In this document: positions 5,594 to 38,952 of the stretch, piece by piece
Layout: each line of letters starts with the position of its first letter
Numbering within the stretch: position 1 is the stretch's first letter
Virus record (IMG/VR): IMGVR_UViG_3300042564_001950
Location: 1 to 39,348 of that record
Length of the DNA: 39,348 nt
Strand: one strand, 5' to 3'
From: a virus
Made by a program: the position numbers and the translations under genes
Notes under the pieces: model-generated
Database searches by the model: none
Told to the model about the DNA's origin: nothing
Seen by the model: only the letters and a program-made list of their open reading frames with translations

Positions 5594-6826
5594 ATGGCAT
5601 TAACTCCTGCACCTGCACCTCCCGCACAAACTCCTGCTCCAGGAGCAACTGCACCTGCCGCAGCAACTGCGGCACCTCAACCGAAAACAGAAAGTCGGTT
5701 CAGTAGAGGTAGTGCACCACTCAATTTCCTAGAAACGCCACTCGATAAAGATGGACAGAAACGTTATCCGATAAATGTTGGGAATTCTGCAGAGTTCCCA
5801 CATTACGTTGTTTTCTATCCTCTGGTGCGCGAAGGAACAAAACGAGGTAAGGAATTATTGTCATCTGGTGGTGGTAGAATTTTTGATCAGACAGATCAGA
5901 ATAGAGTCGACCCAGAAAACGGTAAAATTGCAACAGGAGCAGCAGGTGCGTTAATTGGGGCCAGTTTGGGTGCTGCTGGTGGTGCTGGCGCAGCGACCTC
6001 TCTCGGGGAGGTATTAAATAAAAATGGTGGAACAACTGTAAACAAAAATCCTAACGCTACAGGCGGACCAGTATCAATCGGCGTAAAAATGGCGGCAGGT
6101 CTTGTTGGTGGAATTTTGGGAGCAGGTGCTGGTGCTGCAGCTGGTGTTGCTGCCAGCGCAATCGCGGGGGAACAACGTCTAGTAATTGGTAGTGATGAGA
6201 TCATTCTGTATATACCAGAAAAAATCTCATCAGGTTATAATGCAAACTACGAGACTGCAGATCTAGGTGCACTCATTGGTGGTCTCGCTTCGGGTAAAGC
6301 ATCAGTAGGAGGTTTATTTACTGAAGGTACAGAAACTGCTGATTACATGATAAGAAAGGCAGGTCGTATTGCGAACATTGCTGGATTTGATCAGTTTAAT
6401 AATGTGTTGCAGGCAACTTCAAAGAGAGTAGAAAACCCATACAAAGAACAATTATTTAGATCTATGGGATTTAGAAAGTTCTCGTTTGATTATAGATTTG
6501 CACCATATAATGAAGCAGAAGCAGATGTCGTTTTCGGTGAAAACGGTATACTTAAATTGTTTACTTCGCACATGCATCCAACCCTGAGCCCTAACGGTCT
6601 GTTCCAAACTTATCCATCAGAATTTATGATAATCTACTATCACAATGGTGCCGAGAATACATATGTCAGAAAAATATCAAACTGCGTGCTGACAGATATG
6701 GTTATAGATTACGGCGCAGAAGGGTTTACCACGTTCTCTAATGGATGTCCTACTGAAGCATTTGTCAGATTGCAATTCTCTGAGTTGGAAACTTTGACTA
6801 CAGACAGAATTGAGAAGGGATACTGA
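5594..6826 (+). CDS. 48: Baseplate tail tube cap gp48
   Basis: A 410-aa protein (T4 gp48 is 364 aa). Residues 1-50 are a low-complexity Pro/Ala/Thr leader (PAPAPPAQTPAPG). RYPINVGNSAEFPHYVVFY begins the fold. Residues about 113-195 form a Gly/Ala-rich hydrophobic insert. Then come IILYIPEKISSGYNANYE and the conserved C-terminal tube domain, residues 281-410: NPYKEQLFRSMGFRKFSF, HMHPTLS, TYPSEFMIIYY, NCVLTDMVIDYG and FSELETLTTDRI. This pattern fits the T4 tail-cap family, which sits on the hub and nucleates the tube. It opens the plus-strand unit under a late promoter and is followed one base later by gp53. Confidence 0.75.
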   Translation: MALTPAPAPPAQTPAPGATAPAAATAAPQPKTESRFSRGSAPLNFLETPLDKDGQKRYPINVGNSAEFPHYVVFYPLVREGTKRGKELLSSGGGRIFDQTDQNRVDPENGKIATGAAGALIGASLGAAGGAGAATSLGEVLNKNGGTTVNKNPNATGGPVSIGVKMAAGLVGGILGAGAGAAAGVAASAIAGEQRLVIGSDEIILYIPEKISSGYNANYETADLGALIGGLASGKASVGGLFTEGTETADYMIRKAGRIANIAGFDQFNNVLQATSKRVENPYKEQLFRSMGFRKFSFDYRFAPYNEAEADVVFGENGILKLFTSHMHPTLSPNGLFQTYPSEFMIIYYHNGAENTYVRKISNCVLTDMVIDYGAEGFTTFSNGCPTEAFVRLQFSELETLTTDRIEKGY

Positions 6827-6827
6827 T

Positions 6828-7340
6828 ATGTTATTTTCTATGTTCCCGAGATTACTAGTCAATACGATTACGCCAAACACAGCGACACTTGTAACTGATA
6901 TTTTTCGCAGAATCTCATTAAATAGATTTAAGAATAATGTTGTTTTTTTACAAACAGTCACCATTCCGGATGGTTACACAATCGAACAAGTTTCCGATAA
7001 GTTTTACAACAGTCCAGATTATCATTGGGTTATTATGGCAATAAATGATATCGTCGATGCACGAAAAGAGTGGCCGATGGGTTCTTCAGATTTACTCGCA
7101 TATTGTAAAAAGAAATATGGTGAAACAGGAATCTATGAAACACATCATTATAGAACAGTAGATGTTGATAAATTGATTGTTGATTATGACGCTGCAGATC
7201 TTGCAAACGGAAATATAGAAGAAGTGACTAATATTCAGTACGAAGAAGAACTAAATAATGGTAAGCGAGAGATAAAGATTTTGGATCCAAAATACTTAGC
7301 GGAATTTGTGTCTGCGTATTCGAATTTGATTAGTAGGTAA
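6828..7340 (+). CDS. 53: Baseplate wedge protein gp53
   Basis: A 170-aa protein (T4 gp53 is 196 aa) with the family pattern: MFPRL near the N-terminus, DIFRRISLNRFKNN, the core IPDGYTIEQVSDKFYNSPDYHWVI, DIVDARKEWPM, and a Tyr-rich YCKKKYGETGIYETHHY segment. gp53 closes the wedge onto the hub in T4. I take the ATG at 6828 as the start because AGAAGG (6813-6818) sits 9 nt upstream. A TTG at 6810 lies inside gp48 and has no comparable ribosome site. The stop of gp48 and this ATG are separated by one base, indicating coupling. Confidence 0.75.
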   Translation: MLFSMFPRLLVNTITPNTATLVTDIFRRISLNRFKNNVVFLQTVTIPDGYTIEQVSDKFYNSPDYHWVIMAINDIVDARKEWPMGSSDLLAYCKKKYGETGIYETHHYRTVDVDKLIVDYDAADLANGNIEEVTNIQYEEELNNGKREIKILDPKYLAEFVSAYSNLISR

Positions 7341-7346
7341 TTAATA

Positions 7347-9428
7347 ATGGCAGAATCACCAGTAGGTCAAGGAAAAACTACTGCATCACCACCAACCGCA
7401 ATCAGTGATGCAATGACAAAACCAGGAGATGTAATTATTTCATCTCTGACTCTAAATGTCGTGTCATCAGAAGATCCTCTAGATCTGAAACCATTCATGA
7501 TGGAAATAAATCTGTATGAAGATATTTTTTCTCCAGCTCTGCACGGTTCAGTAATTATTCGCGATTCGTTGAATCTTATTGGGAGATTGCCAATCATTGG
7601 TGATGAGGTTCTCACCATGGATATTCAAACACCATGGAAAGAACTGGGCGGTTATACCAAAAGTAATCTTGGAACATTCGATCCTATCAATAAAATCCAA
7701 AAGTCATTTTCAGTTTATGCAGTCAAGAATCGTAAACTAAACAATGACAGGGAGCAATATTATGAGTTGTTATTTTGCTCTATAGAAGCATCTTCTGATA
7801 ACGTTGTAAAAGTATGTAAAAAATTCGAAGGCACCACAGACGAAATCGTTGCTGATATTTTTAAAGAAAACATAAAAGCACAAAGATTTTTTACTCGTAA
7901 AAGCGAAGTTAGCACAGGATCAACCAATCCTGAGACGCCTGAGACGGATAGCGAGTCATCATACAATATCGCGGATGAGACAGCATATACCGAACTGTAT
8001 ATCGCCGACGCTCCCCACCAATCAGAAATAACATTTGTTTCGCCAATGTGGTCACCCTTTCAGTGTATAAATTGGTTGGCGAAGAGATCTATTGGAAACA
8101 ATAATAAATCTCCAACTTTTATGTTTTATGAAACAACCAAAGCATTCTATTTCGCGTCAATCGAAGGTCTTGTCAAAAATCAGTTAGAAAACGGAGACAT
8201 ATATTCAGCCTTCGTTTATAATACGAATTTATCTAATTTACAAACGGTATCTTCGTTGGTCAAGGGATTCCAAACCATAGAAGCATTGCAATTTATTACT
8301 AATCTTGATGTCATCCAGAGTCAAGATTTAGGTCATTTTGCCAGCACTGTTCATTCATTCAATATGGTAAAGAAAGAATATACGGCATATTATTATGATC
8401 ATGGATTCAACTATAAACAATACCACCACATGGAAGATGGAACATTGGATCCATCATCAGGGGCATATAAATTCCCCGACATTGACAACGAAGATCCTAC
8501 CAAAACCGACAAACAATACAAAATGATTTTTCCAATTAACGTGTTGCGATCATCAGATACTAAACCGTTTGTTTCAACTGTGAATCCTGGTGTGCTGGAT
8601 TCAACCGTAGATTCTATCGATCTTCATCCCGAAGAATTTGTGTCGCAGAGAAATAGTTCGTTGCTGGACTTAACCACATTAAGATTGCAGATAACAGTTC
8701 CTGGAAGAACGGATGCTGAAGTTGGTAGAATGATTCAATTATATTACCCCTCCGTCGGGGAGAAAACTAAAGAGGATTCTGAAGCATTGATATGGGACAA
8801 ATTTGTAACAGGTATCTACATGATAACTGCGATACATCATCAAATATCTCCTTTGCGGCACACTATGTTTTTGGAAATTTCCAAAGATTCTTATGCGCAA
8901 GAAATTTATGAAGTTGAAGAACTTGGTGGATCGGATGGTACTAGTACTCCAACTTCTGATTCTGCGCCAACCACAACTGATCCTGCTGCGCCAGCGGCAA
9001 CACCGACGAAACCAGTTGGTAAAGGTTCGTTTATCGGCGACAGTATTGCACAAGGTCTAGGAAGTTCTGCCAAGGACGCAACAACAAATGCTACCGTTGG
9101 TTGGAATACTGACAGGATTAAACAAAATTATGCTGCAAAAGGTGGTTCTGATTATACAGTCATATCAATGGGATCTAATGATAAAGGATTCCCGAATATT
9201 AAGACTGCCGAAAATGCGACTGCAGTAAGAGAATCTATTAAAACACAAACTAAGAAAGTTATCTGGATTCTTCCGTATGATAGTGTGATTGCACAAAAGA
9301 TTCAAGGCGTAGCATCTAAATATGGTGACAAAACGATTAAACTTTCGGAATTCCCTTCGAATGACGGATTGCATCCAAAAAGTTATGCGAAGGTTCTCGA
9401 ACGTGTCAATAGTGAGATAGGAAGTTAA
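7347..9428 (+). CDS. Baseplate hub-like protein (gp27 position) fused to a C-terminal SGNH hydrolase
   Basis: A 693-aa protein. Residues about 25-530 resemble the large hub or tail proteins of marine T4-like phages: IISSLTLNVVSS, DLKPFMMEINLYEDIFSPALHGSVIIRDSLNLI, ITFVSPMWSPFQCINWLAKRS, and a beta-rich end with ALIWDKFVTGIYMITAIHHQI. They occupy the place of T4 gp27 (391 aa). After a Thr/Pro/Ala linker (about 535-558) comes a compact SGNH/GDSL hydrolase: G564-D565-S566 (block I nucleophile), G609-S-N611-D612 (block III) and D673-G-L-H676 (block V Asp/His). The full Ser-Asp-His set and oxyanion Asn are visible, so it looks active. SGNH enzymes deacetylate or de-esterify glycans and lipids; here the target would be an envelope glycan (inference). 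gp5 follows after 3 nt. Confidence 0.75.
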   Translation: MAESPVGQGKTTASPPTAISDAMTKPGDVIISSLTLNVVSSEDPLDLKPFMMEINLYEDIFSPALHGSVIIRDSLNLIGRLPIIGDEVLTMDIQTPWKELGGYTKSNLGTFDPINKIQKSFSVYAVKNRKLNNDREQYYELLFCSIEASSDNVVKVCKKFEGTTDEIVADIFKENIKAQRFFTRKSEVSTGSTNPETPETDSESSYNIADETAYTELYIADAPHQSEITFVSPMWSPFQCINWLAKRSIGNNNKSPTFMFYETTKAFYFASIEGLVKNQLENGDIYSAFVYNTNLSNLQTVSSLVKGFQTIEALQFITNLDVIQSQDLGHFASTVHSFNMVKKEYTAYYYDHGFNYKQYHHMEDGTLDPSSGAYKFPDIDNEDPTKTDKQYKMIFPINVLRSSDTKPFVSTVNPGVLDSTVDSIDLHPEEFVSQRNSSLLDLTTLRLQITVPGRTDAEVGRMIQLYYPSVGEKTKEDSEALIWDKFVTGIYMITAIHHQISPLRHTMFLEISKDSYAQEIYEVEELGGSDGTSTPTSDSAPTTTDPAAPAATPTKPVGKGSFIGDSIAQGLGSSAKDATTNATVGWNTDRIKQNYAAKGGSDYTVISMGSNDKGFPNIKTAENATAVRESIKTQTKKVIWILPYDSVIAQKIQGVASKYGDKTIKLSEFPSNDGLHPKSYAKVLERVNSEIGS

Positions 9429-9431
9429 AAT

Positions 9432-10436
9432 ATGGCAATGGACAATATTACATCTAACAATAATGCAAACTTTTATTGGTGGTTTGGTGTGGTTGAGGAT
9501 CGAAACGATCCGCTGCGACTAGGTAGATGCCGAGTAAGAATTATTGGGTATCACACTGAAGATAATGAAGTACTTCCTGCAGAAGACCTTCCATGGGCAA
9601 TACCTGTAATGCCTGCAAACTCGGCGGGAAGTTCTGGTGTTGGGTGGTCACCAACAGGCGCAGTAGAGGGTTCTTGGGTTGTTGGATTTTTCGCGGACGG
9701 TGAAAACGGTCAACACCCTATGTTCTTCGGTACAGTCGGTTCAATTCCTGGTGGGTTGGCATCTGCAAATTGCGCACCATCCGAGGGATCTGGATCTTCT
9801 AGTGATGATGCAACAGGCAGCGGGGGGACTGATACTGGTGGTGATATTGGTGAAGTGACTCAACCAACGGGCGATGCGAAAAATCTAGAAGAATATTTGT
9901 CATCTTGGTTAGATATTAATGGAAAGAAAATAAACGGATATACTCCACTTGCTAAAGCTATGATCATGGCACAATGCTCACACGAATCTGGCGGATTCAC
10001 GAGAATGACTGAAGTTGGTAGCGACGAATATTTTATTTCTGGTCTCAATCGCGGGAAAAAAGTACATAGCGGTTATGATATTCAAAGTATTCATGCAGAC
10101 GGCAGGCAAAGAGCGAGACAAAATGGTAATACACAACCAGGAGATGGTAAGAAATATCGCGGAAGAGGATTTCTAGGACTTACATGGAAAAATAGTTATC
10201 GAAACTGTGGGAAATACATTAAAAAACCATTGGAACAAAATCCAGATTTAGCAGCAACTAAAGAGGTCGCAGCAGAAATACTACTTTGGTATTTCAACGT
10301 AGAACGACCTAAAGTCGGTAAAAATAATAGATGGGGTGATGTCGAGTACGTAACCAGGCAAATTAATGGTGGAGTGCTTGGACTTGCTGATAGAAAAAAG
10401 AAATTCGCATACTACAGAAATAAATACAAAGTTTAA
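9432..10436 (+). CDS. 5: Baseplate hub gp5: OB fold plus GH19-type lysozyme/muramidase domain
   Basis: A 334-aa protein. Residues about 12-115 are the gp5 N-terminal OB fold (YWWFGVVEDRNDPLRLGRCRVRIIGYH, then LPWAIPVMP, GSWVVGFFADGENGQHPM and FGTVGSIPGG). A Ser/Gly/Asp linker (about 118-145) leads to a C-terminal glycoside hydrolase 19-like domain: S183-H-E185-S-G-G-F with the likely catalytic E185, YRGRGFLGLTW at 242-252, and VTRQINGG (I311 to G314) plus GLADRKKKFAYY near the end. T4 gp5 instead carries a GH24 lysozyme and continues into a beta-helix; this protein stops after the enzyme and the beta-helix is in the next gene. The GH19 motif normally has Gln where G249-L250 stands, a minor deviation. 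It would cut peptidoglycan during tail penetration. Confidence 0.8.
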   Translation: MAMDNITSNNNANFYWWFGVVEDRNDPLRLGRCRVRIIGYHTEDNEVLPAEDLPWAIPVMPANSAGSSGVGWSPTGAVEGSWVVGFFADGENGQHPMFFGTVGSIPGGLASANCAPSEGSGSSSDDATGSGGTDTGGDIGEVTQPTGDAKNLEEYLSSWLDINGKKINGYTPLAKAMIMAQCSHESGGFTRMTEVGSDEYFISGLNRGKKVHSGYDIQSIHADGRQRARQNGNTQPGDGKKYRGRGFLGLTWKNSYRNCGKYIKKPLEQNPDLAATKEVAAEILLWYFNVERPKVGKNNRWGDVEYVTRQINGGVLGLADRKKKFAYYRNKYKV

Positions 10437-10445
10437 GGTATAACT

Positions 10446-13400
10446 ATGATAAAATATAATCCATTTACGCCGTATTTTACAACAGTCGATAGTATCAACA
10501 TGATTGAGGATGAGACCATTGGTTCTCTGACTCGCGATGATGTAGTTACGCTTTTGAAAGAAATTCAAAAAGCGATGACTCTACAATATTATAATAAGGT
10601 ATATAACTTCGGGCAAACGCCTCCTGGTCCTGGATACAACTTATTAGAAGTAAAGGGTGGTCAACTAACACAAACTGGTGACCAATGGAAATTTACTGTT
10701 GTTCATGCAGATGGTGAGTATGGCGTATATAAACTCGGCACAACGCAACTTATTGATGCTGGAATATTCGGCAGCGATTTAAATAAATGGATCAGCAATA
10801 ATCTGCCAAATATTCCTGTTCCCTCGAAAGGTAACGAGGAATATGAAAGTTGGTATAGTCGATTCGCAAAGTACAACAACGCTAAACAAACAAGAATAAT
10901 TCAAGCGCCTGTTAATGCTCGCAATAATGCATTATACTATATGTTAATTTATATAGTAAATGGAAGCGATCCTCGGTTTAATGTTTCTATTCATCCAGAG
11001 TTAGCATCGCAAAATCCAATTGATATGCATACTGGATTTATTGAACAACCTCAACTACAAGATCTTGCTGCATCAAATCTACTGAAATTTTCATATCAAT
11101 TATTATTAACATCTCGCGCAATAAATGAAAGTGTCGATAAAAAAACTCTTGCTGGTGCCTTGGCATTATCATTGTGCTGGGATATTGATTCTGCGCAAAA
11201 CTATCTGCGAGGAAACATTAAGACAGACACAAGCGGTATATCTGCAAAGTACTGGTTCGATGTTGGGTACAATGCAGTTGCACTACCAACGGAAAAGGTT
11301 GCAACACCTGGACCAATTCCTGGTACTACCAGTGTAGTTAAGGACGAAGAAGTAACACCTCCTCCAGCAGTTGAACCTGAGACACCTGTCGGACAAACTA
11401 CTGTCGAAACTACAAAAACATCTAATTCCCCTGCAGAGGCAAAAGAAGTCCCTAAGAAAATTGTTAAGACAATTAATAATGGAACGATCACATATGAATT
11501 AACTCCTGCTGGAACTATCTCTGCTAAGGTTGTTACTGCCACAAAGAAAACTGCTAGTGTTCTTGGTTCTGGCGGGTTCATCACATCAGTAACAAATCCA
11601 TTCAGTTTTATACAGAATGGTATTGTGACGACATTAGAACAACTTGGCGCAGAAACTTTTAAACTCTCTGTTGTGGATAGAGTCGATAATGGAAGAGTTT
11701 TATTTGAGGGGTCAGATATAAATTCAGCGACTCTCGCTTCCAATGCAGCAACTAAACTCAATCAAATAAAAGCAGCAGAACGTGATTCTCTACATGGTAG
11801 AGGATCTGGTGGAACTTGGTTGCTTGCTATTGAAACTGTAGTGGAATGGTTGCCCCAAACATATCCATCTATTGTTACCGCACTGAAACAGTTAAAAACT
11901 ACTAATGAGAATACTAAAACTGATGATGTTGAAAGCAACAAAACAATTGCTTTCGATGATCCCGCTGACGTAGAAACTCTCATTAAGCAACTTGATGCTA
12001 AAGCGCAAGAAGCAGATAGATCTAGATTAAAATTTACATATGATGCATGCGTATCAGCGAAGAATGAAATTCAATCAAACTTTACTACAGATACGCAAAC
12101 AATTTCTTCCGCAATCTCACAAGCAACACAAACTTCTGCTGACGGGAGTTCTACATCATCTGTTTCAACTGTTCAATCATCTGGTGCGGTAACAACTGTT
12201 ACTACAACAACAGATGCAGACGGAACAGTAACACAAACCAAGACAGTAGAAAAGGTAGACGCACCGTTAAAAGGTTCTTCTCAGAATACTCTAGACAATG
12301 GTATCGAACACAATACAAGATCAGCAGAACCTACTTCTCAAATAAATTCTCCATCTGCTAATGCTCTCCCGACGCACGAAGGCACTAATGTAGAAAAACC
12401 AATTGAGAAAGGTTTCGCAGATCCAAATAAATCATATCCTAAACCAGACTATGTAAATAAACCAGATACTAATACTCTTGCGCTTGGGGTAAATTCTAAA
12501 AATATCAACCCAGACCCAAGAACATCTGCAGGTGATAAATCTTCACAGTCATTGGGTTCTTCACCAGCAGCAAGAAATGCATCAAGAAAACGTGCGGTAA
12601 AGATGGCAGGTCGTTCTGGATCCACGTGGGAACAACCAGCGACTCCGTACGCTGCGAAGTATCCATTTAACAAAGTTTTTGCAGGTGAATCTGGACACGC
12701 ATTAGAAATCGACGACACTCCTGGATTCGAACGATTAAATATTGCCCACAGATCAGGAACCTTTACTGAGACTGGACCTGATGGAACTCAAGTAAATAAA
12801 ATTGTGGGTAATGGGTATTCTATCGTAGAAAAAGATGGTTTCGTTTTAATTGAAGGTAATGCCAACGTTCACATTGCAGGACAATGTAATGTGTTTATTA
12901 TGAATGACACTGCACTAACTATGCACGGTAAAGTCAGTCTTGACATCCATAATGACGTTAATGTCAACATTGGTGGATCGCTTGGTCTTTCAGTACAAGA
13001 TGGTATCTATCTCAGAAACGAAGGTGATATTTCTGTTAAAAATGAAGGTAAGGTTGATGCTGAAATAACAGGAGCAGTCACTACCAAGACTACTGGTAAA
13101 TATAATCTGACAACAAATGCAGGGTTGAACCTGACATCCAAGGTTAATACGCATATCAAATCTGGCGGATCGTTCTTTAATCATTCAACTGGTAACATGA
13201 ACCTATGCACTGATGCAGAAATTCTTGCTAAATCCACTGGTGATATTAACTTGAAAACTGCTGGTATGATCAATCAAGAATCGACTGGTGATATTAACTT
13301 AAAAACTGCTGGTATGATCAATCAAGAATCGACTGGTAATGCTAATATTAAATCTGCTGGAACTATTAATGCACAAAGTGCAGGAGACATAAGTTTGAAC

Positions 13401-14459
13401 GCTCCGACAGTTCTTGCAGCACCAATCAAAACCTCTACACTAGATGTTACAACTCTACGGGCAGCAACTACCAATCTGATTGGTAACGACGAATCCAGCG
13501 GTGATGTTACAAATATCAGAGGTTCTGCTTCTGTTACTGCTCCTTCATCTGCTGGTTCTGCAGGATCCGCTGAAGATGCAGTTTGTGCGGTTGCAGCAAA
13601 ACTCCCAGTAACATACGAACTAGAACAACCTGTATCCGTATCTGCACCACAACCTGTCGAACGCACCACTAATGATGTTACTACTGGGTATGATGGTGAA
13701 AACGATGTCATGAATTCTGATGGTGATGATACTCCTCCCGCAGACGGAGATAATCCAGATTGTGTTAATACAGATGCTGATCCATCAACTGCTGGAAATG
13801 ATACATCTACATCCGATACTGGTGACCCAGAAACATCAACTGGAATGATTCCGAGTACTTCTGGTGTTGCAACGAAATCGTGCAACGCAGTTATACTCGA
13901 CGGTAAAACAGTGCAATTACCACCATTGTCTGGGAAGTATGATGGCAATCTGCAACTATCGCCCAATTTCAAACTTAAAGACCTCTGTGTGTTTCCAAGT
14001 AATGGTTGCCCAGATGGGTGGAAGGGATTGCGCAAATCTCCACATGGGCATACAGTAGCTGACATCATCAATAACTTGCGTTGTCTCTGTGTCAATATTC
14101 TTGAACCTACGCAAGCAAAATGGGGTAAACTCAAACTTTCTTGCGCATATAGAAGTCATCACCCTACTAGGGGAGGAGTTGATCCAGGCGCTCATGGTTA
14201 TGGTGCTGCTGCCGATATCGAAGGAATTGGTGGTAGAAGCAAGAAAGAATTTATTAAAATCGCAAAATGGATTACCGAAAATTGTAAACACGATCAAATC
14301 TTACTCGAGTTTACACCAGGAAAATCTGGTAGTGGTTGGATTCACGTAGGTTGGGTATATAGAGATGGAAAACAACGTGCAGGGATGAGTGGAACTATGG
14401 TCGGTCCAACTGGAAAATATATATCGAAAGGATATTTCAAACAACTTCCGACCGTCTAA
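10446..14459 (+). CDS. Spike-like protein: gp5C-type beta-helix with C-terminal M15-type peptidase (1337 aa)
   Basis: Residues 1-275 form a domain I do not recognise. Residues 280-760 are Thr/Ser/Ala-rich, low-complexity linker. Residues about 764-1000 read as a triple-stranded beta-helix like the C-terminal needle of T4 gp5: NVHIAGQCNVFI, then octads such as GDINLKTA, GMINQEST, GNANIKSA, GTINAQSA. After an Asp/Thr-rich linker, residues about 1165-1337 match M15/D,D-carboxypeptidase-type zinc peptidases: Y1235-R-S, a GAH-x-YG-x-AAD motif with H1250 and D1257 (H-x6-D), and W-I-H1300. All three zinc ligands are present. It sits directly after gp5, as if the lysozyme and needle parts of T4 gp5 were split into two genes and a peptidase added to the needle. 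Confidence 0.7.
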   Translation: MIKYNPFTPYFTTVDSINMIEDETIGSLTRDDVVTLLKEIQKAMTLQYYNKVYNFGQTPPGPGYNLLEVKGGQLTQTGDQWKFTVVHADGEYGVYKLGTTQLIDAGIFGSDLNKWISNNLPNIPVPSKGNEEYESWYSRFAKYNNAKQTRIIQAPVNARNNALYYMLIYIVNGSDPRFNVSIHPELASQNPIDMHTGFIEQPQLQDLAASNLLKFSYQLLLTSRAINESVDKKTLAGALALSLCWDIDSAQNYLRGNIKTDTSGISAKYWFDVGYNAVALPTEKVATPGPIPGTTSVVKDEEVTPPPAVEPETPVGQTTVETTKTSNSPAEAKEVPKKIVKTINNGTITYELTPAGTISAKVVTATKKTASVLGSGGFITSVTNPFSFIQNGIVTTLEQLGAETFKLSVVDRVDNGRVLFEGSDINSATLASNAATKLNQIKAAERDSLHGRGSGGTWLLAIETVVEWLPQTYPSIVTALKQLKTTNENTKTDDVESNKTIAFDDPADVETLIKQLDAKAQEADRSRLKFTYDACVSAKNEIQSNFTTDTQTISSAISQATQTSADGSSTSSVSTVQSSGAVTTVTTTTDADGTVTQTKTVEKVDAPLKGSSQNTLDNGIEHNTRSAEPTSQINSPSANALPTHEGTNVEKPIEKGFADPNKSYPKPDYVNKPDTNTLALGVNSKNINPDPRTSAGDKSSQSLGSSPAARNASRKRAVKMAGRSGSTWEQPATPYAAKYPFNKVFAGESGHALEIDDTPGFERLNIAHRSGTFTETGPDGTQVNKIVGNGYSIVEKDGFVLIEGNANVHIAGQCNVFIMNDTALTMHGKVSLDIHNDVNVNIGGSLGLSVQDGIYLRNEGDISVKNEGKVDAEITGAVTTKTTGKYNLTTNAGLNLTSKVNTHIKSGGSFFNHSTGNMNLCTDAEILAKSTGDINLKTAGMINQESTGDINLKTAGMINQESTGNANIKSAGTINAQSAGDISLNAPTVLAAPIKTSTLDVTTLRAATTNLIGNDESSGDVTNIRGSASVTAPSSAGSAGSAEDAVCAVAAKLPVTYELEQPVSVSAPQPVERTTNDVTTGYDGENDVMNSDGDDTPPADGDNPDCVNTDADPSTAGNDTSTSDTGDPETSTGMIPSTSGVATKSCNAVILDGKTVQLPPLSGKYDGNLQLSPNFKLKDLCVFPSNGCPDGWKGLRKSPHGHTVADIINNLRCLCVNILEPTQAKWGKLKLSCAYRSHHPTRGGVDPGAHGYGAAADIEGIGGRSKKEFIKIAKWITENCKHDQILLEFTPGKSGSGWIHVGWVYRDGKQRAGMSGTMVGPTGKYISKGYFKQLPTV
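13236..13331 (+). repeat. Two tandem 48-bp copies coding two beta-helix octads
   Basis: 13236-13283 and 13284-13331 are identical except for one synonymous change (TTG versus TTA). Each encodes T followed by GDINLKTAGMINQES, so a 16-residue unit has been duplicated in frame within the needle. A degenerate third copy follows (TGNANIKSAGTINAQS). Confidence 0.9.
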
Positions 14460-14480: not shown

Positions 14481-14879
14481 ATGACAACAAAAACAGTAAA
14501 CAGAATCTATTCGGATCTAGACTTATCCTTCGCAGCGCACCCAATCACGGGTGACGTTGCGAGGAAGTTCGATGTTAATGCTGTAAAACAAGCACTGAAA
14601 CTTCTCGTTCTCACGAACTTCTACGAAAGACCGTTTCAACCAAAGATTGGTTCGCCGATCTACGGTATGATGTTTGAGAATGTTGATATTGTTACTGCCA
14701 ATTCGTTGAAATTGCGATTAGAATTATTAATTAATAAGTATGAACCACGAGTTAGATCGCAGCAGATAGATGTTGTGCCTCTCTTTGATCAGAATGCATT
14801 TAATGTAACCATATATTTTTATGTTGTCGGGGTTGCGGAACCCGTTTCATTTTCAACTGTTCTAAGAAGAAGTAGATAA
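14481..14879 (+). CDS. 25: Baseplate wedge protein gp25
   Basis: 132 aa, the same length as T4 gp25. It has the GPW/gp25 pattern: RIYSDLDLSF, HPITGDVARKFDVNAVKQALKLLVLTN, the highly conserved YERPFQPKIGSPIYGMMFE, and IDVVPLFDQNAFNVTIYFYV at the end. gp25 forms part of the inner baseplate core with gp6 and gp53. No clear ribosome site lies within 15 nt of the ATG. It ends 1 nt before gp6 begins. Confidence 0.9.
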   Translation: MTTKTVNRIYSDLDLSFAAHPITGDVARKFDVNAVKQALKLLVLTNFYERPFQPKIGSPIYGMMFENVDIVTANSLKLRLELLINKYEPRVRSQQIDVVPLFDQNAFNVTIYFYVVGVAEPVSFSTVLRRSR

Positions 14880-14880
14880 G

Positions 14881-16782
14881 ATGTCTCAACTCAATGTTAC
14901 TGAATTAGATTTTGCAACCATCAAAGAAAATCTAAAAACCTTCATGCAATCGCAAGAGGAGTTCCAAGATTACAACTTTGATGGATCTGGTCTTACTATA
15001 CTTCTTGATATTCTTGCATATAACACACACTATAATGCAACTCTCGCGCATCTTCAAGCAAATGAAATGTTCATTGATAGCGCCATCAAGAGAAACTCAG
15101 TTACATCTATTGCGAAAACATTAGGATATACACCGACATCAAGAAGATCTGCTCGTGCAAATATCACATTGCAAATTAGACCACCAGAATCTTTTACCAA
15201 TACAAGTTTGACTGTGACACGCGATACACCGTTCACGGCAAAAACAGCAAAGAACACATATACTTTCTTCCCGAGAGAAGATTATGTTTCTGGATTAGTT
15301 GTTCTTGAAACAGGTCAAACAGGATTCAGTTTCCCGATGGAACTGATCGAAGGCAAACGAGTAACCAATACATTCGTTGTTGATCAATCTAATAAATCTG
15401 GACCATTCGTTTTACCAAATGGTAATATTGATACTACTACCATAAGAGTTAGAGTACAACAATCAAACACTGTTACATCAATTACTACATGGAACTTCTA
15501 CGATGATATTGTATCAGTTGATGGAACAACTAGAGCATTTTTTGTTGAAGAAGGTCCATCTGGATTATATGAGATAAGATTTGGTGATGATATTGTTGGA
15601 CAGCAACTACAAGTTGGTAATATTGTTATCATTGATTATGTCGTAAGCAGTGGTTCAGCAGCGAACTCTATTCCCAACTTTTCAGCATCAAGAACTTTCA
15701 CTGCTTCGGGCGAAAGTAAACTCGTATATCTAGGATCTGCTGCTACTGGCGGTAGCGAAAAGGAAAGCATAGATAGTATTCGTTACAATGCTCCGAAATT
15801 TAATTCCACTAAGAATCGTGTTGTGACATCTGATGATTATGAAACATTGATCAGATCAAGGTTTGGGAATATCAATTCTATTGCTGTTTGGGGTGGTGAA
15901 GAAAACAATCCTCCAATTTATGGTAAAGTTTTTGTCTCTATTCAACCATTACCTGGTTCAATTATCTCACAATCAGATAAAGATATTATTGCTAGAGATA
16001 TTATTAGACCGCGAAGTGTTGTTTCTATTCAACCCGAATTCGTAGATCCGATCGAGACATATATCGGATTGAATATTTCAGTCAACTACAATAAGACAAT
16101 TACATCTCTTACCTCCTCTAGAATTGAGTCTGAGGTCAGAGCAGTTGTGCAAAGTTTCTTCACAAATAATGTTAATAAGTTACAGAAGAACTTCTATTAT
16201 TCCAAATTGCTTTCGGCGGTAGTCGGAACGACCCAGTCGATTTTCTCTGCGAGCATTCAAGTACTGATGCACAAACGAATTCCGATATTTTCAGGAGATT
16301 TTCCTGAGGATTACGTGGTAAGATTTAATGGACCGTTAGAAATTGAAACATTAAAGACTACGACTTTCAATACGACTATCGGAACACAGGAATATGTGGT
16401 TTATATAACTGATCAACATGATACAACAGTTGGCGATATTGGAACTCTTGTGATGAAACGTGTATCAGATGATGTTATTGTTCTATCCAACGTAGGAACT
16501 GTCGACTATACGACTGGTGTTGTTACTATTACCGATCTTCTCATTAATTCGGGAACAGAATCCACGTTAGACAATACTATTAGAGTCTATGTTGAACCGT
16601 TTGGTGATTCACCAAATATCTTAACGACAGATCTGACATCAACTACGAATACTTCAACGGCAGCAGTTTTCCCATACGCTGCTAGAAATACTGTGTTAAC
16701 TCTAGACACAAGCGCACCAAATTCGCTAGCAAATATTCCTGCAGGACTGACTGTTACTGCAATTGCTAACTCGCAAGAATAA
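14881..16782 (+). CDS. 6: Baseplate wedge protein gp6 (baseplate J-like)
   Basis: A 633-aa protein, close to T4 gp6 (660 aa). The N-terminus LNVTELDFATIKENLKTFMQSQ, FQDYNFDGSGLTILLDILAYNTHYNA, EMFIDSAIKRNSVTSIAKTLGYTPTS and RSARANITLQI is the classic gp6 signature. A central beta-domain contains LYEIRFGDDIVGQQLQVGN, and DYETLIRSRFGNINSIAVWGGEEN marks the baseplate-J core. gp6 dimers form the inner ring of the baseplate. The region after about residue 480 is beta-rich and Thr-rich. Confidence 0.9.
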   Translation: MSQLNVTELDFATIKENLKTFMQSQEEFQDYNFDGSGLTILLDILAYNTHYNATLAHLQANEMFIDSAIKRNSVTSIAKTLGYTPTSRRSARANITLQIRPPESFTNTSLTVTRDTPFTAKTAKNTYTFFPREDYVSGLVVLETGQTGFSFPMELIEGKRVTNTFVVDQSNKSGPFVLPNGNIDTTTIRVRVQQSNTVTSITTWNFYDDIVSVDGTTRAFFVEEGPSGLYEIRFGDDIVGQQLQVGNIVIIDYVVSSGSAANSIPNFSASRTFTASGESKLVYLGSAATGGSEKESIDSIRYNAPKFNSTKNRVVTSDDYETLIRSRFGNINSIAVWGGEENNPPIYGKVFVSIQPLPGSIISQSDKDIIARDIIRPRSVVSIQPEFVDPIETYIGLNISVNYNKTITSLTSSRIESEVRAVVQSFFTNNVNKLQKNFYYSKLLSAVVGTTQSIFSASIQVLMHKRIPIFSGDFPEDYVVRFNGPLEIETLKTTTFNTTIGTQEYVVYITDQHDTTVGDIGTLVMKRVSDDVIVLSNVGTVDYTTGVVTITDLLINSGTESTLDNTIRVYVEPFGDSPNILTTDLTSTTNTSTAAVFPYAARNTVLTLDTSAPNSLANIPAGLTVTAIANSQE

Positions 16783-36058: not shown

Positions 36059-36715
36059 CTATTTCTTCCCAATTACCATGAAACGTTCGAAGTTTACCTT
36101 GCCGTCCCAAGACCAATATGATTGTTCGATCTGCCCCTGATAGGAAACATCGGTAACTCCAACATTTTCTATATGGTCTTCGATTGTAGGGACGCAATTA
36201 ATACCATACATTTCTCTAAAAACATTTGACGATTGGCAAGCAAATACACAGTTCTTATTTGCAGATGTCATTTTCTTAAGAGGATACATTGTTTCACTAC
36301 AGAGAGAAATTATCACATCAGTATCCAACGCATTAATATCATGATATGCAAAAGGAACATCCCAATTGATGTGATTTAACTCCACACCGTTATTGGAATA
36401 ATACTTATTGAATACTTTAGAGAGTTCTAATGCGTCTTTGTCGATATCGATTAAATTAATCTTCTTGACGTTTAGATTTTCACACAACAATGGAACAAGC
36501 GGGAACCCCAACCAAGAATTTAAAACCGTAATATTTAATTGCTTGGTTACGTCTACGCATTTCTGTAATTCTTCTACCAACCAAATAGCAGCATCCATAG
36601 TATTTGGATTCAAAGACTTACGAAAGTCTTCGTGTTTAAACGGCATTTCGTGATTGATCTTTTCTAGACCCTCACCCCAATAACGATAGTTGTTTAAGTA
36701 ATTATAATTTAACAT
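36059..36715 (-). CDS. SAM-dependent methyltransferase-like protein, about 218 aa
   Basis: A Rossmann-type core is visible: ITVLNSWLGFPLVPLLCEN (a variant of the glycine-rich SAM loop), INLIDIDKDALELSKVFNKYY (acidic residue after beta2 and following helix), VELNHINWDVPFAYHDI, then DVIISLCSETMYPLKKM, as in class I methyltransferases. The GxGxG loop is degenerate (NSWLGF). I prefer the ATG at 36715; a second in-frame ATG at 36739 would overlap the upstream gene by 38 nt. It is the last gene of the minus-strand glycosyltransferase operon, overlapping its neighbour. It is convergent with the oxygenase gene (stops 10 nt apart) and no clear terminator is visible between them. Confidence 0.55.
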   Translation of the reverse strand: MLNYNYLNNYRYWGEGLEKINHEMPFKHEDFRKSLNPNTMDAAIWLVEELQKCVDVTKQLNITVLNSWLGFPLVPLLCENLNVKKINLIDIDKDALELSKVFNKYYSNNGVELNHINWDVPFAYHDINALDTDVIISLCSETMYPLKKMTSANKNCVFACQSSNVFREMYGINCVPTIEDHIENVGVTDVSYQGQIEQSYWSWDGKVNFERFMVIGKK

Positions 36716-37385
36716 CTTGTGGTCTTTCCATTGAATCATATAAACAAATAAGTGGTTCTTCGCGCAGGACTTGTTCTCTTACATCTGTCGGCCACATATA
36801 TCCGTAGTTGTAACTGTATACCCAACCGTCTGGGAAATGGTCAATTTTCAGAAGACGTTCTCTTTGATGCCCGAATAGATTGTCGAGACCGCGATAATAG
36901 AAGAACATTTGATCTGCATAATCTGTGACGAACTTAGTGATTTTGTCGATATCTAACCTATCATTCCACCTCAACACGCTGGAATTTAAGTCTGTATATT
37001 TGTGTGGAATATCTTGCGTGTCTTGTTTCATCTTCTTGATGTTATGCCAATGAGTGCGAACAAAAGTTAAACCGTCTTCCGGATCATGATCAACGATGCA
37101 ATCGATATTCTTTTGAATACCTATATCAAGATCTAGAAAAAGTTTTTCTCCTTTTTGCTTAACAACATTTCGGTCAAAAAGATATAACTTATTCCACCAT
37201 TTTTCGTAGTAGTTATCCTCGGGTAATGGAATGACATTAATTTCTGGAAATAACCCATCAGAATGTTCGGTCAAACAATAAAAATCAAATTCTGTTGTAA
37301 TGTGTTGTTTGCATTGTTCGAGAATTTTATTGACATCTTCCGAATCATATTTGAATCCCCACTTTACTGTGTATATACTAATCAT
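36702..37385 (-). CDS. Glycosyltransferase-like protein (KWGxKY family), paralogue 1
   Basis: 227 aa from the ATG that overlaps the upstream stop as TAATG (37385). It carries the shared N-terminal YTVKWGFKYDSEDVNKI, a FYCLTEHSDGL strand, and a LFLDLDIGI motif with D85 and D87 as the GT-A DxD. YTDLNSSVLRW, YYRGLDNLFGHQRE and GWVYSYNYG parallel the C-terminal landmarks of its neighbours. It is shorter than paralogue 2. It is part of a run of coupled genes whose 5' end lies outside the window. Confidence 0.65.
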   Translation of the reverse strand: MISIYTVKWGFKYDSEDVNKILEQCKQHITTEFDFYCLTEHSDGLFPEINVIPLPEDNYYEKWWNKLYLFDRNVVKQKGEKLFLDLDIGIQKNIDCIVDHDPEDGLTFVRTHWHNIKKMKQDTQDIPHKYTDLNSSVLRWNDRLDIDKITKFVTDYADQMFFYYRGLDNLFGHQRERLLKIDHFPDGWVYSYNYGYMWPTDVREQVLREEPLICLYDSMERPQDVKL

Positions 37386-38203
37386 TAAACATTCCAATGT
37401 TCTAAAAGATCAGGATCGACCAACGATTCCTGTTTCACTTTGCCTCTGCTATTGTCTTTGAACGGGAGTAAATCCACATTAAAGACGCATACAATACAGT
37501 CTTTTCTATATATAGCGACCTCTAGATCTCCTGAATCCCAATCACGACCTCTGTTGTATGAGTAAGCAAATGTATTTGGGAAGTGCTTCCATAGAGGAGT
37601 ATTACTAAAGTCGCCCCAACGCCAACTGTGATAGTTATCTGTTCCATCGGTGAATGTAAACCAAATACGTTCTTGGTGTTCTAACACGTCCTGCCAAATA
37701 CATTCTGTCTGATCATCCGACCACACCATACAACTGCCATTGGTATATGCACCATGTGACAACTTAAAGTTACGAGACTTCATGGGTCTAGGGTCTTGCC
37801 ACCACGAACGTAACTTGGTAGGATTCTCTAGGTCATAAGTGATGATCGGCGACAAATCATTTTGAATGATAACATCAAGGTCGAAAAAGACAAATCTTCC
37901 AGTGGGTTTATCGTTTGCGAAGTTATGTGTATTGAAGATGAACGTCTTTGGTCTGTCCCAACAACGTGCCATGCCGTATTTGAAATCCTCAGATCCGAAC
38001 CAGTATTTTGGGTGGATGTCGGGAATGTCTGGGAAGTCAATGACTTTAATCTCATTATCAAATCCTTCACTGTTATCAGTATAGCAATAGAAGTGGAACT
38101 CAAAATTATCAGGGGTGTGCTTCTTTGCCATTCGATAAAGTCGGTTAACAAACTCGGCGGAATACTTTGTTCCCCATTTAGAGCAGACATAATTAACTCT
38201 CAT
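37385..38203 (-). CDS. Glycosyltransferase-like protein (KWGxKY family), paralogue 2
   Basis: 272 aa from the ATG at 38203, which overlaps the upstream TGA as ATGA. Landmarks: VNYVCSKWGTKYSAEFVNRLY, FHFYCYTDNSEGF, FVFFDLDVII with D108-x-D110, YTNGSCMVWSDDQTECIW, and a TDNYHSWRWGDF...AYSYNRG end. An upstream in-frame ATG (38209) exists but the coupled start is favoured. The family appears to be a GT-A-fold sugar transferase; sequence alone does not show the sugar or acceptor. Confidence 0.65.
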   Translation of the reverse strand: MRVNYVCSKWGTKYSAEFVNRLYRMAKKHTPDNFEFHFYCYTDNSEGFDNEIKVIDFPDIPDIHPKYWFGSEDFKYGMARCWDRPKTFIFNTHNFANDKPTGRFVFFDLDVIIQNDLSPIITYDLENPTKLRSWWQDPRPMKSRNFKLSHGAYTNGSCMVWSDDQTECIWQDVLEHQERIWFTFTDGTDNYHSWRWGDFSNTPLWKHFPNTFAYSYNRGRDWDSGDLEVAIYRKDCIVCVFNVDLLPFKDNSRGKVKQESLVDPDLLEHWNV

Positions 38204-38952
38204 TTCCACAACCTAACAATATTTTCATCTAAACAATCAGATAAGTCTATCTGTTCTTTTGCTGATGGATGTGGTATGTTGTCTGTATTGAACAAACAAA
38301 TCTTAGCATCTGGTCTAAATTTAAATCGTTCTGCATCATCGGGATGATGTTTACCACGGTTCCAAGAATATATCCATCCACCAGGAATATCCTTCCAGAA
38401 ATCTCTCTGCCTCCAGTAATGGTAATTGTCGCTTCCCTTGAAGAAAGTTTTAAATACCGACTCTGAATGTTCCAACACATCGTTGTAAATATGTTCGCAT
38501 GCAGCACCAGACCAAAGCATCATGCTGGAATTATAAAATGTTCCTCGAGTTTCGATGAAAAGTCTATCATGTTTCTGCGACTGTGGTTGCCATCGACACT
38601 GGATGATACGGGGTTTTTGTGCGAGTAACTCAACGTCAGTAATATCTTCTTGAATTACTACATCTAAATCAAAGAAACACCAGTTACCAACGTATCCTAA
38701 CCAGTTATGTGAATTGAATACTAAAAACTTTGCACGATCGAAACAGAAAGTTTCTTTTCCGAACCAATGTTTGGGATGTAAAATCCCATCATCAGGAATT
38801 GGTGCAGTATCACACTCAACACCTTCTGCGTCATCGGTATAACAAGTAAACGTAAACTCATTTTCGAAGTTTCGTTTGACCATGTTGTAAAGATTGTTTA
38901 CGTATTTCGCGGGATACTTATTCCCCCACTTAATGCATACGAAGTTCATCAT
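38200..38952 (-). CDS. Glycosyltransferase-like protein (KWGxKY family), paralogue 3
   Basis: 250 aa. It shares MNFVCIKWGNKYPAKYVNNLY, FTCYTDDAEGV, WCFFDLDVVI with D95-x-D97, FYNSSMMLWSGAACEHIY, GSDNYHYWRQRDFW and GWIYSWNRGKH with paralogue 2, so the two are recent-looking duplicates. The start is ATG at 38952 (or the adjacent ATG at 38949); it overlaps the 3' end of the upstream partial gene by 23 nt, with a GGAG about 13 nt before. Confidence 0.65.
   Translation of the reverse strand: MMNFVCIKWGNKYPAKYVNNLYNMVKRNFENEFTFTCYTDDAEGVECDTAPIPDDGILHPKHWFGKETFCFDRAKFLVFNSHNWLGYVGNWCFFDLDVVIQEDITDVELLAQKPRIIQCRWQPQSQKHDRLFIETRGTFYNSSMMLWSGAACEHIYNDVLEHSESVFKTFFKGSDNYHYWRQRDFWKDIPGGWIYSWNRGKHHPDDAERFKFRPDAKICLFNTDNIPHPSAKEQIDLSDCLDENIVRLWK

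Follow-up and report, generated by a model that had tools for sequence, protein, structure and literature searches.

Exchangeable C-terminal hydrolase domains on a predicted T4-like puncturing complex encoded in a virus record

The IMG/VR virus record IMGVR_UViG_3300042564_001950 (39.3 kb, analyzed at its full length and referred to here as the window) carries three consecutive open reading frames on the plus strand, which encode a hub protein (7347-9428, 693 residues), a protein starting with a gp5-type OB domain (9432-10436, 334 residues), and a spike protein (10446-14459, 1337 residues). Each of these T4-type complex proteins ends in a different hydrolase fold, namely SGNH, GH19, and M15, respectively. 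The first-pass annotation had described this arrangement from the sequence, and all residues it named are present (S566, N611, D673, and H676; E185; H1250, D1257, and H1300). We consider it likely that the three genes encode the central puncturing complex of an uncultured T4-like phage, in which a fixed scaffold bears predicted hydrolase cassettes on flexible linkers at the C-termini of its subunits. Beyond that annotation, which left the first 640 residues of the spike protein undiscussed, we describe a division of gp5 into two genes, a degenerate lysozyme-like domain in the spike, and the exchange of cassettes among relatives.

Based on Pfam and PHROG, the genes follow the T4-like baseplate order gp48/54, gp53, hub, OB, spike, gp25, gp6 (Table 1). 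The hub, OB, and spike proteins were found at 100% identity in two further IMG/VR contigs (L006 and L007), and diverged versions with the gene order kept occur in many more contigs, indicating that the three genes are real members of a structural cluster.

Table 1. Positions of the predicted features of the hub, OB, and spike genes and of their neighbors in the window (dN/dS, ratio of nonsynonymous to synonymous substitution rates).
Feature	Position	Strand	Basis
Hub core, residues 1-520	7347..8906	+	phrog_350 tail protein, E 9e-73; position of T4 gp27
T/P/A-rich linker, apparent exchange joint	8907..9011	+	Composition; identity drops sharply here (L045, L046, L048, and L022 comparisons)
SGNH hydrolase cassette, residues 556-693	9012..9425	+	AlphaFold, Foldseek against PDB, invariant residues, dN/dS
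gp5 N-terminal OB domain	9432..9761	+	PF06714, E 9e-14, 52 bits; T4 gp5 (1pdl), E 7e-18
G/S/D-rich linker	9762..9923	+	Composition; exchange boundary in L045 versus L048
GH19 lysozyme-like cassette, residues 165-334 (E185, E194)	9924..10433	+	PF00182, 4ok7
Apparently degenerate lysozyme-like domain, spike residues ~23-283	10512..11294	+	hhalign, hmmsearch, phrog_27932
Variable region, function unassigned	11295..12365	+	Length varies widely among relatives
Post-OB linker motif of gp5 (GFADP...YPK...DTN)	12366..12617	+	Weak PF06714 tail match (642-704); BUCT-ZZ01 gp5
gp5C-type beta-helix needle	12618..13445	+	phrog_430, E 1.4e-45; T4 gp5C and 9f4a, E 7e-21
D/S/T-rich linker of 150 residues, needle to tip	13446..13895	+	Composition
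M15 zinc peptidase at needle tip, residues 1151-1337	13896..14456	+	Invariant residues, L009 orthologue, phrog_894
Upstream: gp48/54-like tube cap; gp53	5594..6826; 6810..7340	+	phrog_230, phrog_232, PF11246
Downstream: gp25; gp6	14481..14879; 14881..16782	+	PF04965, PF21379, phrog_219

The SGNH domain of the hub contains S566, the block-II glycine G585, N611, D673, and H676, the last two forming an Asp-x-x-His block. The corresponding S, G, N, D, and H are invariant in 29/29 homologues, with identity down to 31%. The AlphaFold model of the domain, built from 29 relatives, reached a predicted local distance difference test (pLDDT) score of 94 and a predicted template modeling (pTM) score of 0.90. 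Its best Foldseek matches in the PDB were of the SGNH/GDSL type over 34 consecutive ranks (TMq 0.60-0.72 at the top) and include 4rsh (E 3.5e-5), PatB (8tlb), OatA (6vjp), TesA, several esterases, and the non-catalytic Oskar domain, which has an SGNH-like fold. PatB and OatA are peptidoglycan-acetylating enzymes. Searches of the PDB with the single hub sequence, the SGNH profile, and the hub profile gave no useful match. The dN/dS of the domain is about 0.05-0.11. Elsewhere, in the relatives inspected, the same SGNH branch occurs as a protein of its own that is about 130 residues long, and at least 446 relatives were confirmed by scan. Homologues of the hub core are found in Melnitz, BUCT-ZZ01, and cyanophages, and phrog_350 proteins adjoin gp53 in other T4-like phages. 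In two relatives, the hub gene has an apparent frameshift, inside the SGNH domain (L008:3722-4047) or inside the core (L023:3620-5206), either of which could be a sequencing error.

The second gene exceeds the PF00182 cutoff of GH19 (29.8 versus 25.5 bits), with 46.8 bits for the L022 orthologue. The closest structure is the SPN1S endolysin 4ok7 (E 6e-21), and E185 and E194 pair with Glu residues in this alignment; from general knowledge of the fold, we take them to be the catalytic Glu pair of GH19. The GH19-coding stretch (9924-10433) also matches the C-terminal part of phrog_3201, a tail-fibre family of 2408 positions, so GH19 domains occur on further tail proteins too.

Residues 725-1000 of the spike protein match the triple-stranded beta-helix of the T4 gp5C needle, and the linker motif in front of them is the one that comes after GH19 in BUCT-ZZ01 gp5. 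Within the needle coding sequence, positions 13231-13374 consist of three tandem 48-nucleotide (16-residue) repeats, the first two being 96% identical; the repeat number may alter needle length. The M15 domain at the tip contains H1250, D1257, E1288, W1298, and H1300, as well as R1236, and the H-x6-D, E, W-x-H set is invariant in 17/17 homologues, with identity down to 29%. A 92%-identical orthologue (L009) passes PF08291 (24.1 bits versus a cutoff of 23.2). The domain also matches the PHROG endolysin family phrog_894 (1e-18), and M15 endolysins of pelagiphages are related. When the M15 profile was compared with solved structures, Sonic hedgehog alone was matched, weakly, and was not used as proof. 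What the first-pass annotation had read as three enzyme domains was therefore borne out by profile or structure in each case: the AlphaFold model for SGNH, Pfam and the PDB for GH19, and the passing orthologue for M15.

The spike protein begins with a further domain. It matches the gp5 lysozyme domain of Rhizobium/Agrobacterium T4-like phages (hhalign 96.6%, E 5e-10; also hmmsearch), and phrog_27932 is matched in 11/15 members. In the Rhizobium/Agrobacterium phages, an RES motif is invariant and its Glu is presumably catalytic. Here, the residue aligned with this Glu is M, I, or L in 15/15 sequences. By sequence, the domain is apparently a dead lysozyme that has been kept in place.

In the window, gp5 is divided, with OB-GH19 and needle-M15 encoded by two genes that each have their own start and stop, so the T4 trait of OB, lysozyme, and needle in one chain that is cleaved at maturation is not found here. 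OB, GH19, needle, and M15 are fused in BUCT-ZZ01, OB and needle are split in Melnitz, and in the Rhizobium/Agrobacterium phages the OB gene lies far from the needle gene. Because Melnitz and the Pootjesviridae are also split, the division is not peculiar to the window phage. We also considered a split exactly at the T4 maturation cleavage site. This is only partly right, as the lysozyme-like domain lies on the needle side, and the idea is weakened by the OB/needle splits in Melnitz and the Pootjesviridae.

We then compared the cassettes among relatives. The contigs counted include many near-duplicates. Contigs L045-L049 share about 90% identity or more in the hub core, OB domain, and needle (hub cores are mostly 77-100% identical per 40-column block), and identity between them drops abruptly within the linkers. 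The hub C-terminus carries an SGNH cassette (SGNH-a) in L045 and L047, a longer one (SGNH-b) in L046, and nothing in L048 and L049, and the OB C-terminus carries Phage_lysozyme2 in L045-L047 (in L049 by resemblance only) or a SleB-like hydrolase in L048. The hub of L022 is 92% identical to the window hub, yet has no SGNH domain. Overall, SGNH is absent in 17 of the 46 relatives with a readable hub C-terminus, duplicates counted, and SGNH-a is found on the hub in 25 contigs, many of them near-duplicates. Since SGNH is accompanied by GH19, Phage_lysozyme2, or, for SGNH-b, a SleB-like enzyme, it is not tied to one muramidase. At the tip, M15 domains of 40% identity are found on needles that are 88-91% identical; L017 and the window, for example, share 91% of the needle and just 40% of M15. 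Between L017 and L045, nucleotide identity is 0.89 for SGNH versus 0.61 for the hub core, and the synonymous divergence (dS) is 0.47 versus 1.95, with an SGNH dN/dS of about 0.09. The SGNH domains are thus closer than the backbones that carry them, which indicates horizontal exchange together with purifying selection.

The SGNH-b cassette (GDSIGVG...NDG[LI]HP) was seen on the hub C-terminus at L031:7348-7998, L046:2475-3113, and L052:7306-8001. It has no Pfam match in L031 and L052, and named phages gave no match to the L031 cassette. L052, a long relative, carries a free-standing SGNH elsewhere in addition to SGNH-b on its hub.

With a constant scaffold and enzymes as exchangeable cassettes, the spike resembles a holder for interchangeable tools. 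Within the window clade, a glycan-cutting family occupies the OB position wherever the domain is identifiable (GH19, Phage_lysozyme2, or SleB-like), all complete tips carry a peptidase, and the hub SGNH is optional. In the Rhizobium/Agrobacterium phages, the spike lysozyme with intact Glu is paired with an OB-CHAP protein (TIGR02594). We hypothesize from these sequences, which represent few independent lineages, that each spike may combine one glycan-cutter with one peptide- or amide-cutter.

The baseplate cluster of the window includes further wedge and fibre genes. Genes for the tail tube, head closure, and a DNA end-protector are located upstream of it on the opposite strand, and among the minus-strand genes downstream (36059-38952), three that were examined have no PHROG match. 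No PAAR cap protein was found among the scanned proteins of the window and five long relatives, records that may be incomplete. Named phages are distant, with gp6 identity of at most ~35%. Regarding the host, gene 2 had no match in genome contigs, and psbA was not found in seven long relatives.

A likely mechanism can be outlined. The hub, OB adaptor, and beta-helix needle would together form a T4-like puncturing complex. Upon contraction, the M15 peptidase at the tip would reach the peptidoglycan first and cut peptides. Next, GH19, carried after the OB domain, would cut glycan strands in place of the older internal lysozyme, whose fold appears to be kept with its catalytic Glu gone. The SGNH domain of the hub would strip ester-linked acetyl or acyl groups from peptidoglycan, lipopolysaccharide (LPS), or capsule. 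The exchange of cassettes may reflect adaptation to the wall chemistry of the host. If each of the three proteins is trimeric, as we infer, a virion would carry nine enzyme domains.

Several observations weigh against parts of this picture. The relation of the hub to gp27 is one of position alone; a gp27 match was sought for the hub in the PDB by sequence and none was obtained, and the hub is therefore labeled gp27-type by position. The window SGNH domain scores below the PF13472 cutoff (16.4 versus 32.9 bits), and this short, divergent branch was accordingly classed by its fold and residues and not counted among the members of PF13472. One SGNH relative, encoded as a free-standing protein by a phage of 171 kb from the same clade (L247:1501-1920), lies in a non-structural context, so the ancestral SGNH substrate may not be the envelope; its flanking genes, as judged by eye, are deaminase-like and AAA-ATPase-like. 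The window M15 domain is below the cutoff of PF08291 (M15_3; E 0.013), and the SleB-like assignments are just under the Pfam cutoff or made by resemblance. The model of the pseudo-lysozyme is modest (pLDDT 68), and Foldseek gave no significant fold match for it, so its reading is drawn from the profiles described above. Recurrent matches to MltE in that search were non-significant (E 2.5-8.7) and serve as a lead only. Finally, Melnitz breaks the glycan-plus-peptide rule, with a VanY-like OB cassette and an M15-like tip.

The role of SGNH within the puncturing complex can be read in more than one way. With somewhat less than an even chance, the wall is attacked by the glycan- and peptide-cutters only, and SGNH has its targets on the outer surface (LPS O-acetyl groups, capsule, or lipid esters) or serves in binding, as an optional host-specific module. 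Consistent with this, the domain is missing from more than a third of the readable hubs, the 92%-identical one included, is swapped regardless of which lysozyme cassette is present, and shows a weaker fold match to the tail-fibre esterase-type G7C gp63.1 (4qnl, E 0.05). However, it is located on the central hub and not on fibres, and its fold matches include PatB and OatA, though also many unrelated esterases. We regard as doubtful a three-port holder in which an optional hub O-acetyl esterase, active on peptidoglycan or LPS, would unmask the substrate for a swappable muramidase and the M15 tip, exchange would follow host wall chemistry, and the ancestral lysozyme would persist as a dead scaffold. 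Still less probable is a concerted three-step enzyme evolved as one unit, where the muramidase acts on glycan that the esterase has unmasked, and the mesh is opened by the peptidase. The window clade does combine all three domains, with invariant active sites in SGNH and M15 and with purifying selection on SGNH, but cassettes are exchanged singly and close relatives without SGNH retain the others. The first-pass annotation had envisaged de-esterification, glycan cutting, and peptide cutting in one penetration event; an obligate version of such a device is unlikely, since loss or exchange can affect SGNH on its own, as in L022, and the survey of co-occurrence found it with no particular muramidase. 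A mainly structural or vestigial nature of the C-terminal domains is very improbable: the spike gene does show an enzyme fold kept after Glu loss, but catalytic residues are invariant in 29 (SGNH) and 17 (M15) homologues, most at 29-45% identity, SGNH dN/dS is low, and, where a replacement at the OB position was identified, it belongs to another hydrolase family.

Phage tail enzymes have mostly been treated singly, whereas here a clade keeps its puncturing scaffold almost the same and exchanges the enzymes. L045-L049 constitute natural near-isogenic sets for comparing how a single wall-cutting domain affects penetration. If the pairing of a glycan-cutter with a peptide-cutter is true, it would be a simple design principle for the breach of peptidoglycan by contractile tails, and a hub-borne esterase would mark O-acetylation, or LPS esters, as an obstacle that has to be cleared by some phages before they can enter. 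In a literature search of partial coverage, no paper on virion-borne peptidoglycan O-acetyl esterases was found; within that coverage, the hub SGNH, the spread over three proteins, the dead lysozyme, and swapping on near-identical spikes are apparently new.

Known systems share individual traits with the complex described here. T4 gp5 is one chain, cleaved at Ser351/Ala352 into OB-lysozyme and needle, which form the gp27-gp5 spike as (gp5*-gp5C)3 (PMC3004832). The window resembles it in the OB domain, lysozyme, beta-helix needle, and gene neighborhood, and the OB-GH19/needle division resembles the T4 products. It differs in having separate OB-lysozyme and needle genes, with GH19 replacing the T4-type lysozyme, and in adding the M15 tip, the SGNH domain on the hub, and the pseudo-lysozyme. 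The gp5 of Synechococcus phage BUCT-ZZ01 (ON615601) has OB, GH19, beta-helix, and M15 in identical order, but as a single fused protein of 939 residues; its hub has no SGNH domain, and the pseudo-lysozyme was not found there. Methylophilales phage Melnitz (MZ577097) also has an OB gene apart from the needle gene and an M15-like tip, but a VanY-like OB cassette, a hub without SGNH, and a needle without the N-terminal extension. In Melnitz, the VanY-like end of the OB gene (L002:14265-15005; E 5.8e-5) is just under the cutoff, and the M15-like end of the spike (L002:16532-17008) has the invariant residues, which contrasts with the statement in the Melnitz paper that lysin-like genes other than gp67 are absent (PMC9004378).

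The Rhizobium/Agrobacterium T4-like phages (Pootjesviridae, such as RL2RES and Atu_ph04) share the separate OB gene and the same lysozyme-like domain before the needle. Unlike in the window, their lysozyme keeps its Glu, the OB cassette is CHAP/TIGR02594, and an M15 tip was not seen. Such OB genes ending in CHAP/TIGR02594 directly follow a hub-like gene at L244:1375-2286, L245:1375-2247, and L246:946-1812. Vibrio phage 1.244.A and Pseudomonas phage Milchi likewise have an M15-type peptidase on a spike-tip protein, but on a separate PAAR protein, which was not found in the window clade. The hubs Deep-Blue gp189 and Vp4 gp110 end in an NlpC/P60 domain that is lytic in vitro (PMC11406892); they share an enzyme at the baseplate hub C-terminus, but this is one peptidase and the phages infect Bacillus. 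The idea of a multi-enzyme device, as in the first-pass annotation, has its closest precedent in Anabaena phage A-1(L), a contractile phage. Its hub gp15 combines a lysozyme, an endoglucanase, and a peptidase domain, all directed at the envelope, and the last two were shown to be lytic on host cells (PMC10966104). A-1(L) differs in that the domains lie on a single hub protein of another baseplate type, with no SGNH named and no swapping reported. For phage tail and lysis proteins, domain shuffling has been documented generally (PMC10684548).

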